Under the pieces are notes generated by a model that worked only from the letters and a program-made list of their open reading frames with translations, was not told the DNA's origin and did no database searches. 64,000 bases of DNA from Fibrobacteraceae bacterium. GTDB taxonomy: Bacteria > Fibrobacterota > Fibrobacteria > Fibrobacterales > Fibrobacteraceae. Location of the stretch: positions 62,001 to 126,000 of the forward strand of contig JAGBSH010000005.1 in the NCBI GenBank assembly GCA_017631885.1, given 5' to 3'. Of this stretch, positions 2,850-7,292 are shown one piece after another; positions within the stretch are counted from its first letter, which is position 1, and each line of letters opens with the position of its first letter. The position numbers were made by a program, and so were the translations under genes.

Positions 2850-3815
2850 TTATCCGTCCAAATAATAACCACCGTTCTTCCGGGCTCCCCTAAATTCAAT
2901 CTTGCCCGATTCGCTCAAAGCTTGCAACTGACGCTGAGCCGTTCGCAGGGAGAGGTTGAGCATCGAGGCCAGTGCGGGCGTATTGATCCCTGGGTTCACC
3001 CGGATTTCGGCGAGGATTCGTTCGGAGAGATTTTCACCTGTTTCGCGGTGGCGTACGGCACCTTTTTTCGGTTTAAGGTTGTTCCGCAGCAGTCGCAACA
3101 GGTCCGCCTGCGTCGCAACTACGCAATCGGCGATAAAGCCCACAAAAACCTTGTCATCGATGTGAGCCGCCTCTAGGGCAGACACGTATTCCATACGTCT
3201 AACGGCGGGAATCAGCGCAATGGTATACTCGCCGCGAAGCAGCGCCAGGTTCATCAGCAATCGCGCCACGCGTCCGTTACCATCGACAAAGGGATGAATG
3301 AATACGAACTTTTTGTGAACCTGCGCGGCGAACTCCACAGGATTCATCCTGGATTCGTTCTTGTTGAACCACGCGACGAACTTCTTCATCTCGGCACGAA
3401 TTTTCAAGTGCGGCGTAACGGGGTAACGGCTCCCGCTAATTACGACGGGCACCTTGCGATAAACACCGGCCTTGTCCGCATCTATCTGCTGGTAAAACAG
3501 CCGATGCAGCATCAGTATATCCGATTCTTCAAGAGTCTTGTTTTTTGCGAGTTTATGAATATGATCGTACGCCTTGGCATGCCCAACGGCTTCGTACACG
3601 TCTCGCAGAGGTTTCCCGTTGATGGTGAGCCCATCCTCGATGACGACCTTGGTCTCTGTTTCGGTGAGGCTGTTGCCTTCGAGGGCGTTACTCGTGTAAG
3701 TGAGTCCCACGCGGTAGAATTCCCGCAGGGACTTGAGAGTGTCCTTGGGAATCGGGCGGAACGACAGAAGTTCCTTATTGTTGTCGGCAGCAATCTTCAA
3801 ATACGGCGAAATCAT
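2850..3815 (-). CDS. Fic-family AMP-transferase with C-terminal winged helix
   Basis: The 321-residue protein has the Fic catalytic motif HPFVDGNGRVAR at residues 174-185, with the His, the acidic residue and the GNGR anion-binding loop all intact. At residues 42-47 it has SNALEG, matching the inhibitory (S/T)xxxE(G/N) motif, N-terminal as in class II Fic proteins, so activity is probably self-restrained. Residues ~262-320 form a winged-helix DNA-binding domain (INTPALASMLNLSLRTAQRQ then a GGYY wing). Fic enzymes transfer AMP to hydroxyl side chains of target proteins; the target here is unknown. The ATG at 3815 has a GAGG ribosome binding site. Four spaced copies of a TGGCGGTxTAAAT motif lie just upstream, which suggests that the wHTH domain represses its own promoter. 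The gene is GC-rich relative to the core. Confidence 0.92.
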   Translation of the reverse strand: MISPYLKIAADNNKELLSFRPIPKDTLKSLREFYRVGLTYTSNALEGNSLTETETKVVIEDGLTINGKPLRDVYEAVGHAKAYDHIHKLAKNKTLEESDILMLHRLFYQQIDADKAGVYRKVPVVISGSRYPVTPHLKIRAEMKKFVAWFNKNESRMNPVEFAAQVHKKFVFIHPFVDGNGRVARLLMNLALLRGEYTIALIPAVRRMEYVSALEAAHIDDKVFVGFIADCVVATQADLLRLLRNNLKPKKGAVRHRETGENLSERILAEIRVNPGINTPALASMLNLSLRTAQRQLQALSESGKIEFRGARKNGGYYLDG

Positions 3816-3848
3816 CGAAAAACCTCGATTTATGCACCTAATATATAA

Positions 3849-3935
3849 TTTTATACCGCCAAAACCAACAATTTAAACCGCCATATAGCAATTTATACCG
3901 CCATTTTTAGCAAAATTTGCAGATTTACACCGCCA
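3849..3935 (-). promoter_or_regulatory. Four-copy operator-like direct repeat upstream of fic
   Basis: The motif TTTAxACCGCCA (plus-strand reading; x is T, A, T, C) occurs at 3849-3861, 3871-3883, 3891-3903 and 3923-3935. The starts are 22, 20 and 32 bases apart, close to two, two and three helical turns, so all copies would face one side of the DNA. They lie 34 to 120 bases before the fic ATG. The winged helix of the Fic protein is the obvious candidate binder (inference). Confidence 0.65.
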
Positions 3936-3955
3936 AAATGAGTTTTTAGAGACCG

Positions 3956-4543
3956 TTACCGTTTCTTGAATACGACGATTTCGGCATCGGCTCCGTTCTT
4001 GCCGTATTCGCTCACGAGAATGTAGCGTTCGTCGCAGGCGATTCCAAAGCAGCGGCCTTCAGCACCAATCTTTTCGACCTGGTTGCCCCAGTAGCTTGCG
4101 TTATCGTCCAGGAGCTTGACGTTGTTGCCGTTGATCTTGTATTTCTGGTTGATGAACGAGCCCTGCAGCACAAAGAGGTTGTCGATGGTCGGCATGTCCT
4201 TGATGCCCAGCGCATTGACTTCTTCAATGAACTTCTGCTTCATGGGCGAGGTGGCGTGCGGAAGTTGGTCCTCGGGGAGGCGCCAGCGCTTGAGCGTCGG
4301 GAAATACTTGCGGAGTTTCACCTTGTATTCATCGCGGGTAAGACTCTTGCCGGTATTCTTGTTGAATTCGTCCACAAACTGCGAGCAGAATTCCACCATT
4401 TCTTCCATGGTGAAGTCGCCCGTGAACGCGCCGTCTTTGTAGCAGTAGATGCAGTATTCCTCGTTCTTGCTGCCGTCGGCATTCGTACCGAGAATTTCGT
4501 TAGTGAGCGGCATACCGCAGCTTTGACAGAATTTCATTTCCAT
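3956..4543 (-). CDS. Zinc-ribbon domain protein of unknown function
   Basis: The 195-residue protein opens with MEMKFCQSCGMPLTNE and continues to EEYCIYCYKDGAF, a CxxC...CxxC putative zinc ribbon (zf_ribbon_2 type) followed by the usual MEEMVEFCSQFVDEFN helix. This N-terminal ~90-residue module is common in uncharacterised bacterial proteins. The C-terminal half (GRCFGIACDERYILVSEYG) is not recognised. The ATG at 4543 has a strong AAGGAG ribosome binding site. It lies immediately left of copy 2 of the 168-bp repeat. Function cannot be assigned. Confidence 0.8.
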   Translation of the reverse strand: MEMKFCQSCGMPLTNEILGTNADGSKNEEYCIYCYKDGAFTGDFTMEEMVEFCSQFVDEFNKNTGKSLTRDEYKVKLRKYFPTLKRWRLPEDQLPHATSPMKQKFIEEVNALGIKDMPTIDNLFVLQGSFINQKYKINGNNVKLLDDNASYWGNQVEKIGAEGRCFGIACDERYILVSEYGKNGADAEIVVFKKR

Positions 4544-4591: not shown

Positions 4592-4759
4592 GGCTCTGTC
4601 AAGCCTGACCGTATGGCTGCGGACTTGCTGCGATAACCAAAATGGCGTTTTTAGCCAAATTTCTGCATTTTCGCAGTATAAAAACATTTTCCAATGGGCT
4701 GACAAAACCCAATTTTCTTGCTATGCCAAATTATGCGTATGGTTTGACCTGACAGAGCC
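4592..4759 (+). repeat. 168-bp fixed-length repeat, copy 2
   Basis: It starts GGCTCTGTCAAGCCTGACCG and ends GTTTGACCTGACAGAGCC. The ten terminal bases are perfect inverted repeats, and the similarity continues imperfectly for about 15 more. It has the same length and orientation as copies 1 and 3, with a different centre. It lies between the zinc-ribbon gene and the 3' end of the xylanase gene. Confidence 0.87.
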
Positions 4760-7124: not shown

Positions 7125-7292
7125 GCCTCTGTCAAGCCTGATTGTATGGCTACGGACTTGCTGCGATAAGCAAAATAGCCAAAACAGCCAAAAAACAGTG
7201 TTCAGGACGCCGAAAAACAGCTTCCGGGGGGCTTACGAAATGAAAAAACTTTGCTATACCGGAATATATGTATGAATTGACTTGACAGAGCC
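7125..7292 (+). repeat. 168-bp fixed-length repeat, copy 3
   Basis: It starts GCCTCTGTCAAGCCTG and ends TTGACTTGACAGAGCC. It is again exactly 168 bp, gap-free against copies 1 and 2, and in the same orientation. It is the most diverged of the three in its right half. It ends 72 bases before the radA ATG. Confidence 0.8.

Follow-up and report, generated by a model that had tools for sequence, protein, structure and literature searches.

Direct repeats that accompany a winged helix-turn-helix domain: a conserved array at a fic gene of Fibrobacteraceae and its equivalents in other protein families

We analyzed a stretch of 64,000 nucleotides (the window) from a Fibrobacteraceae bacterium (assembly GCA_017631885.1, contig JAGBSH010000005.1, positions 62,001 to 126,000). 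It contains an array of 12-bp direct repeats upstream of a gene for a Fic protein with a C-terminal winged helix-turn-helix (wHTH) domain, termed here the fic-wHTH gene. Direct computation on this gene and its relatives established that the repeat is conserved at the nucleotide level, is associated with the wHTH domain, is relocated among relatives and covaries with the recognition helix of the domain. Judged from these sequence patterns, it is probable (roughly 0.7) that the wHTH domain binds the repeats that accompany it and regulates its own gene.

Conserved direct repeats at fic-wHTH genes

The array is located in a 140-bp gap (3816-3955) between a zinc-ribbon gene (3956-4543, minus strand) and the start of the fic-wHTH gene, both genes being on the same strand. 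The motif TTTANACCGCCA is present there in four exact plus-strand copies (3850-3861, 3872-3883, 3892-3903, and 3924-3935), which in the sense of the gene read TGGCGGTNTAAA and lie 46 to 120 bp 5' of the ATG. The individual elements of this region are as follows.

3924 to 3935, minus strand: repeat 1, TGGCGGTGTAAA in gene sense
3892 to 3903, minus strand: repeat 2, TGGCGGTATAAA in gene sense
3872 to 3883, minus strand: repeat 3, TGGCGGTTTAAA in gene sense
3863 to 3868, minus strand: -35-like TTGGTT, assigned by consensus and 17 bp 5' of the -10-like element; several relatives have TTGATT
3850 to 3861, minus strand: repeat 4, TGGCGGTATAAA in gene sense, flanked by the -35-like and -10-like elements
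3840 to 3845, minus strand: -10-like TATATT, identical in 11 of 11 aligned Fibrobacter rows
3829 to 3840, minus strand: degenerate fifth copy TAGGTGCATAAA, read by eye; TAGGTGTATAAA in several relatives

The preliminary description had reported four copies with spacings of 22, 20, and 32 bases. These copies are exact, share one orientation, have the given distances from start to start, and are far beyond chance, since at least two copies were obtained in none of 20,000 first-order Markov simulations of positions 3816-3955; the end of the interval given for them (3849-3935) is correct and its start is one base early. Its proposal of a spacing near whole helical turns was borne out as well (Rayleigh R, 0.78 at 10.5 bp; P ~7e-4; 12 noncoding spacings listed by hand). 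The genome (2.37 Mb) contains seven exact copies, four of which form this array. The other three are single and located within open reading frames (ORFs), and a wider regulon was rejected for this reason. An inverted-repeat operator in the gene's own promoter, as in the protein CccR discussed below, was not found in the region 3600-4200, where the repeats are direct.

A protein search of genome contigs retrieved 39 loci. In these and in further loci, the array was placed as follows. (i) The Fibrobacter orthologues for which the upstream region is available (92 to 97% identity) also have this array, with its distances unchanged; deviations were observed in L041, in which one copy is mismatched, and in L040, which has three copies, one of them mismatched. 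(ii) Three copies are found upstream in the Bacteroidales loci L050 and L128. (iii) In L046 to L049, three copies are not upstream but intragenic, between the Fic and wHTH parts, and code for GGVN or GGVK and once for GGAN; the repeats of L104, L096, L125, L127, L233, and L234 are likewise intragenic. (iv) Both places are occupied in L099, in which the last upstream copy overlaps the start codon. (v) L236 has a repeat-free promoter region and three copies starting 3 bp after the stop codon, and in L237 two exact copies cover the leader, the ATG directly following the second, and two others, one of them degenerate, lie farther upstream. The tree of the Fic part requires seven changes in the place of the array, and the starred branches force at least three changes for the upstream state. 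The motif thus occurs near fic-wHTH orthologues in Fibrobacter and in Bacteroidales relatives, as had been expected; the upstream position holds for the window, for Fibrobacter, and for some Bacteroidales and does not hold for the many orthologues with intragenic or 3' copies.

Several loci are irregular. L097 (G133) is chimeric, a fragment of another gene, which resembles a YhcG/DUF1016-type nuclease, being fused to the 3' part of fic-wHTH just 5' of the array. Decay was observed in L105 (G173), with a frameshift within the array (spacing of 25 instead of 24), and in L107 (G011), in which most of the wHTH is lost; both have kept the repeats. L092 is a remnant, and G122 contains two arrays. 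In the assembly of Fibrobacter RGIG9997, contigs (L045, L072, L073, and L074) break inside fic around residues 24 and 67, a pattern that would arise from two nearly identical fic copies. Window-type Fic proteins are also carried by L051, on a contig labelled Bacilli, and by L052, on one labelled Methanimicrococcus; the 85% identity of the former to the window protein suggests a misplaced Fibrobacter contig. Mobile or viral dissemination of the array was rejected: the 80 best viral Fic loci all lacked it, the two matches to the tandem motif on viral contigs were in unrelated settings, all Fic homologues in the plasmid and phage collections had less than 60% identity, and the 25 plasmid matches listed align to residue 236 at most and are without the wHTH.

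We then compared 150 distinct Fic-encoding loci, a set that includes near relatives. At least two motif copies were found in 25 of the 27 loci with a wHTH of the LR[TS]xQR type and in 2 of the other 123. Four loci do not fit. L045, whose contig starts within the gene, and L053, in which the 5' part is replaced, have the wHTH and fewer than two copies; L051, whose contig stops short of the wHTH, and L105, which is frameshifted in the array, have the copies and no wHTH call. With the loci found via the motif excluded, the proportions were 22/24 and 1/122 (Fisher, 9e-23), and the three exceptions are incomplete. Of 167 Fibrobacterota genomes, 17 contained the tandem pattern, as did 2 of 296 Bacteroidota genomes; its reversed form was absent from all of them. 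The motif belongs to the wHTH rather than to the Fic enzyme, because it is missing from Fic homologues that do not have this wHTH and because AlbA_2 proteins with related wHTHs have equivalent arrays. The preliminary description had considered the repeats the operator of the Fic-wHTH protein; a conserved DNA element with the wHTH as its likely reader is retained from this, and the tie to Fic is not. It had also proposed that AMPylation state could be coupled to expression of the gene.

The intragenic copies make it possible to distinguish constraint on DNA from constraint on protein. In 39 intragenic repeats from 12 genes (L052, with an altered array, excluded), the codon GGC was used in 39/39 cases (background, 0.193), GGT in 38/39 (0.33), and GTA for valine in 32/32 (0.239), and the preceding base was T in all 39 repeats. 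With one repeat counted per gene, the values were 12/12 for GGC and 11/12 each for GGT and GTA. As a control, none of 51 invariant four- or sixfold degenerate columns of the Fic part (11 of the 12 genes) kept a single codon; synonymous sites elsewhere are therefore randomized. In the 11 rows of noncoding arrays from Fibrobacter, letters differing from the majority amounted to 1.4% in the motif, 14.8% in the spacers, and 25% at the free eighth base; 38 of 44 motif columns were invariant versus 18 of 38 spacer columns (P = 2.7e-4), and upstream motif columns vary about ten times less than spacer columns. The constraint acts on nucleotides and not on the peptide. When viral contigs and 287 Bacteroidota genomes were searched for GGVNGGVN irrespective of codon usage, mostly unrelated proteins with other codons were returned; the peptide alone therefore does not entail these codons. 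It is extremely unlikely that GGVN and GGVK are merely a flexible linker and the DNA likeness a by-product. The linker of the window protein is indeed predicted to be disordered, and in intact genes the reading frame is maintained across the repeats. The explanation is contradicted, however, by the noncoding occurrence of this DNA in the window, L050, L128, L236, and L237; in addition, the synonymous sites are frozen, and the unlike peptides VPEN and GTLN have the same synonymous bases.

Repeat units and recognition helices of related wHTH domains

A search with the wHTH alone retrieved proteins that combine AlbA_2 with HATPase_c_4 and another type of Fic. Of 167 Fibrobacterota genomes, 89 contained matches to a profile of 16 wHTHs (A3), two of which come from loci originally detected through the DNA motif; the sample of other wHTH genes comprised 60 of the listed stretches. 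A repeated tetrapeptide was present in 66 of 72 distinct linkers under a permissive rule that passes a few false ones. The 33 tetrapeptide types ending in N or K have the common unit T-G-N-C-N-N-W-N-W-A-A-A. Conservation of this unit was observed (i) at column 3, with C in 20 types (null, 10.9; 12 of 20,000); (ii) at column 6, with A/T in 25 (null, 15.6; 20 of 20,000); (iii) at column 9, with A in 29 (null, 10.4; 0 of 20,000); and (iv) at column 12, with A/T in 32 (null, 18.1; 0 of 20,000). The sites that change the amino acid vary and the silent sites are fixed, which is the opposite of selection at the protein level. In L272, of a further Fic type, the unit is found in the linker and directly after the stop codon. 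Two other loci, L279 and L337, are without linker repeats and have short direct repeats up to about 50 bp after the stop codon, whose fit to the general unit is doubtful. An ORF of plasmid NZ_CP062215.1 annotated as an ATP-binding protein (L344) has a C-terminal EGVS/EGVN linker and a wHTH and adjoins a macrolide-resistance gene on this IncX4 plasmid; 21 plasmid records, mostly from Acinetobacter, matched the same wHTH query.

The relation of the unit to the recognition helix was assessed in 48 wHTH proteins, which remained of 66 after rows more than 85% alike had been removed; four of the 66 rows, including the window with its noncoding unit, had been added by hand. Differences between DNA units correlated with differences between recognition helices (r = 0.487). 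The partial correlation given the rest of the domain was 0.478, a value reached in none of 5,000 permutations, and the rest of the domain correlated with the unit at only 0.059 once the helix was accounted for. The noncoding unit of the window fits this relation. The residue that precedes the conserved arginine is E, Q, or D for 18 of 19 units with GG versus 4 of 29 without (Fisher, 1.7e-8), and K or R for 15 of 23 units in which the second base of the GG position is C versus 1 of 25 others (6e-6). When every helix column was paired with every unit column, this position ranked second (z = 6.8); the top-ranked pair involves the preceding base, which we ascribe to some units being in another register. 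The locus L129, whose Fic is of the window family and whose wHTH is of another kind, has a unit of its own, TGATACTGTAAA, twice in the linker, and a third copy exactly spans the stop codon (position 2432, 0-based 2431), the motif supplying the TAA. It was for this reason rejected as a motif-free Fic; the domain and its address have therefore changed together.

Covariation of this kind also bears on the explanation that the repeats are a recombination or slippage sequence, in which exchange between paralogues homogenizes the units and swaps wHTHs without any binding function. The chimeric and broken copies that meet at the repeats (L097, L105, L107, and L092) and the 12-bp tandem arrays of many AlbA_2 proteins are in its favor. 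We nevertheless regard it as quite unlikely, since the noncoding Fibrobacter copies, which are 20 to 32 bp apart and separated by unlike spacers, are conserved far above these spacers, and since the unit tracks the recognition helix after the remaining domain has been allowed for. Recombination and binding may coexist.

The window protein and possible modes of action

The features of the gene and its product are the following.

2850 to 3815, minus strand: fic-wHTH gene, 321 amino acids
3675 to 3692, minus strand: codons of the inhibitory-type motif S42-NAL-E46-G47, from the sequence; compare S59ARIEG of CccR (PMC9755527)
3240 to 3533, minus strand: Fic domain, residues 95-192 (PF02661, E = 1.5e-21)
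3030 to 3077, minus strand: linker codons, residues 247-262, the site of the repeats in relatives and repeat-free in the window gene
2865 to 3023, minus strand: wHTH, residues 265-317
2910 to 2948, minus strand: recognition helix (residues 290-302), in which Q294 goes with GG of the DNA unit

The Fic domain contains HPFVDGNGR, in agreement with the catalytic motif HPFx[D/E]GNGR. The N-terminal S42NALE46G47 agrees with [S/T]xxxE[G/N], the defining feature of class II Fic proteins, and its S, N, A, E, and G are invariant in alignment A1. PF13412 matches residues 265-307 (E = 3.7e-8). The gene that follows the array thus encodes a Fic domain, a C-terminal winged helix, and an inhibitory motif, as the preliminary description had read it. 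FICD is the best Protein Data Bank match by sequence (E = 8e-36) and by fold, and the protein is predicted to be an FICD-like class II Fic AMP-transferase. The AlphaFold model was built on 12 aligned sequences. Its predicted local distance difference test score falls below 50 in residues 40-65 and in the linker (248-261), and no inference was therefore drawn from these parts. Elsewhere in the window, a 26-bp sequence is present twice with one mismatch (4611-4636 and 7144-7169), apparently in intergenic positions and inside longer similar stretches; two copies were found in none of 100 shuffles.

In the window, repeat 4 occupies the 17-bp spacer between TTGGTT and TATATT, and TTGRTT-N17-TATATT recurs in several Fibrobacter rows; a promoter scan of the window did not flag this pair. 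In L050 and L128, the array is interwoven with TTTG-N19/20-TAATTTTG, of the Bacteroidota promoter type. Arrays interwoven with promoters are what a polymerase-excluding repressor would be predicted to need. We infer physical binding, DNA rather than RNA as the target, repression, and roadblock or looping from these patterns, as follows. One wHTH unit would read each 12-bp repeat, and several units, arranged next to one another on direct repeats that are separated by two or three helical turns, would control their own gene. In the window, with its array around a sigma70-like promoter, the bound protein would exclude RNA polymerase, and negative autoregulation is most likely its use there. Intragenic and 3' arrays would act in another mode, for example by roadblock or looping.

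A number of observations weigh against autoregulation by DNA binding. (i) All arrays that were inspected are in gene sense, a bias that an orientation-blind DNA operator does not need, and the predicted folding of the window leader is slightly better than that of shuffled sequences (z = -2.2), which equalled it in 5 of 200 cases. (ii) An intragenic or 3' array cannot exclude polymerase from a promoter, and one mechanism therefore misfits some places. (iii) In other families, the gene's own unit was found upstream in 1 of 62 genes (L280, whose called start codon may simply fall within the linker; control, 0.16) and near the stop codon in 1 of 63; relocation in this sample is therefore rare outside the window family and common within it. 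(iv) The 12-bp tandem uniformity of those families may partly stem from slippage. (v) The helix code was noticed by eye before it was tested, its rows are related by descent, and it has exceptions, namely, K with GG in L247 and Q with CC, CA, and GT. (vi) Altered motifs are present in L235 and the archaeal-labelled L052 (TGGCGGTGRAAA, CGGCGGTGTAAA).

The gene-sense bias and the folding of the leader would be expected of an mRNA element: its UGGCGGUGUAAA repeats, located in the leader, the coding region, or the trailer, would govern translation or decay when bound by the protein or by some other factor. All places of the array are, moreover, on or near the transcript, and the last copy overlaps or abuts the start codon in L099 and L237. 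Such an element is improbable, however, because the covariation is with the recognition helix, the DNA-reading part of the fold, because copies in the window, L050, and L128 lie 5' of or inside the predicted promoter and would not all be transcribed, and because the spacings cluster near whole helical turns.

It is also unlikely that binding serves, instead of autoregulation, to mark the own gene as an address, for example in the sensing of incoming elements with the same module, with Fic or AlbA_2 acting on the result. Arrays anywhere in or beside the own gene, neighbors that in some cases resemble restriction-modification or RhuM genes (judged by eye), and the match of PADLOC candidate-system models to the Fic part are consistent with such a role. 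The window gene, however, has zinc-ribbon and TSCPD genes as its neighbors, and the promoter overlap in several lineages favors regulation.

Known systems and implications

SoFic (3eqx, 3zcn) resembles the window protein in its Fic domain and C-terminal wHTH, and no array is known for it. DNA binding by SoFic has not been shown experimentally, according to the consulted part of the source (PMC10628234). The same part describes CbFic2 of Coxiella as a DNA-binding Fic-HTH protein whose (de)AMPylation responds to DNA and which binds random DNA with high affinity; no specific site of its own is noted there (PMC10628234). It has 17% identity with the window model in the fold alignment. A known Fic-HTH autorepressor is CccR of Yersinia pseudotuberculosis, which, in the excerpts of its description, binds its own promoter near -35/-10, represses its own gene, acts as a dimer, and protects two inverted 10-bp repeats 26 bp apart (PMC9755527). 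As far as these excerpts extend, CccR and the window protein share a Fic domain, an N-terminal inhibitory motif, and a C-terminal HTH. The operators differ: the window lacks the CccR feature because CccR uses inverted repeats and the window direct ones, which in this family are multicopy and also intragenic or 3'. By analogy, the window gene may work like CccR without its inverted-repeat operator.

Regulators of the BldC and KdpE type align their DNA-binding domains on direct repeats, and unlike here, the extracts of these reports give no indication of sites inside the regulator's own reading frame (PMC5859096, PMC3264566). For RGG-motif proteins and G-quadruplex-coding mRNAs, the coding sequence is also a target of the encoded protein; this target is RNA and is set by the genetic code, whereas here the element is also found in noncoding DNA (PMC11789052). 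No account of repeats such as those described here was found in the open PubMed Central literature, subscription papers and preprints being outside this scope. Autorepressors with promoter operators are common; a putative operator that stays unchanged base by base while it shifts among promoter, reading frame, and 3' flank, and that is readable from the gene of the protein binding it, was not found described in this literature.

Taken together, the data make it reasonably likely that a large unnamed group of proteins, with Schlafen/AlbA_2 ATP-binding domains and several types of Fic, has a wHTH that travels with its own DNA address. This address would consist of 12-bp direct repeats, TG-N-C-N-N-W-N-W-AAA, usually located in the codons before the wHTH and movable to the promoter or 3' flank, with variable bases read by the recognition helix via a simple code (E/Q for GG, K for CC/AC). 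If the code is true, the target of such a protein is predictable from its own gene. Self-targeting DNA-binding proteins would then be a widespread and seemingly undescribed kind. If so, many proteins that are labelled "Fic family" or "ATP-binding" and whose role is unknown would acquire defined DNA targets along with a recognition code that lends itself to testing, and the odd tetrapeptide repeats (GGVN, DTVN, VPVN, and DRIN) before their C-terminal domains would be explained.
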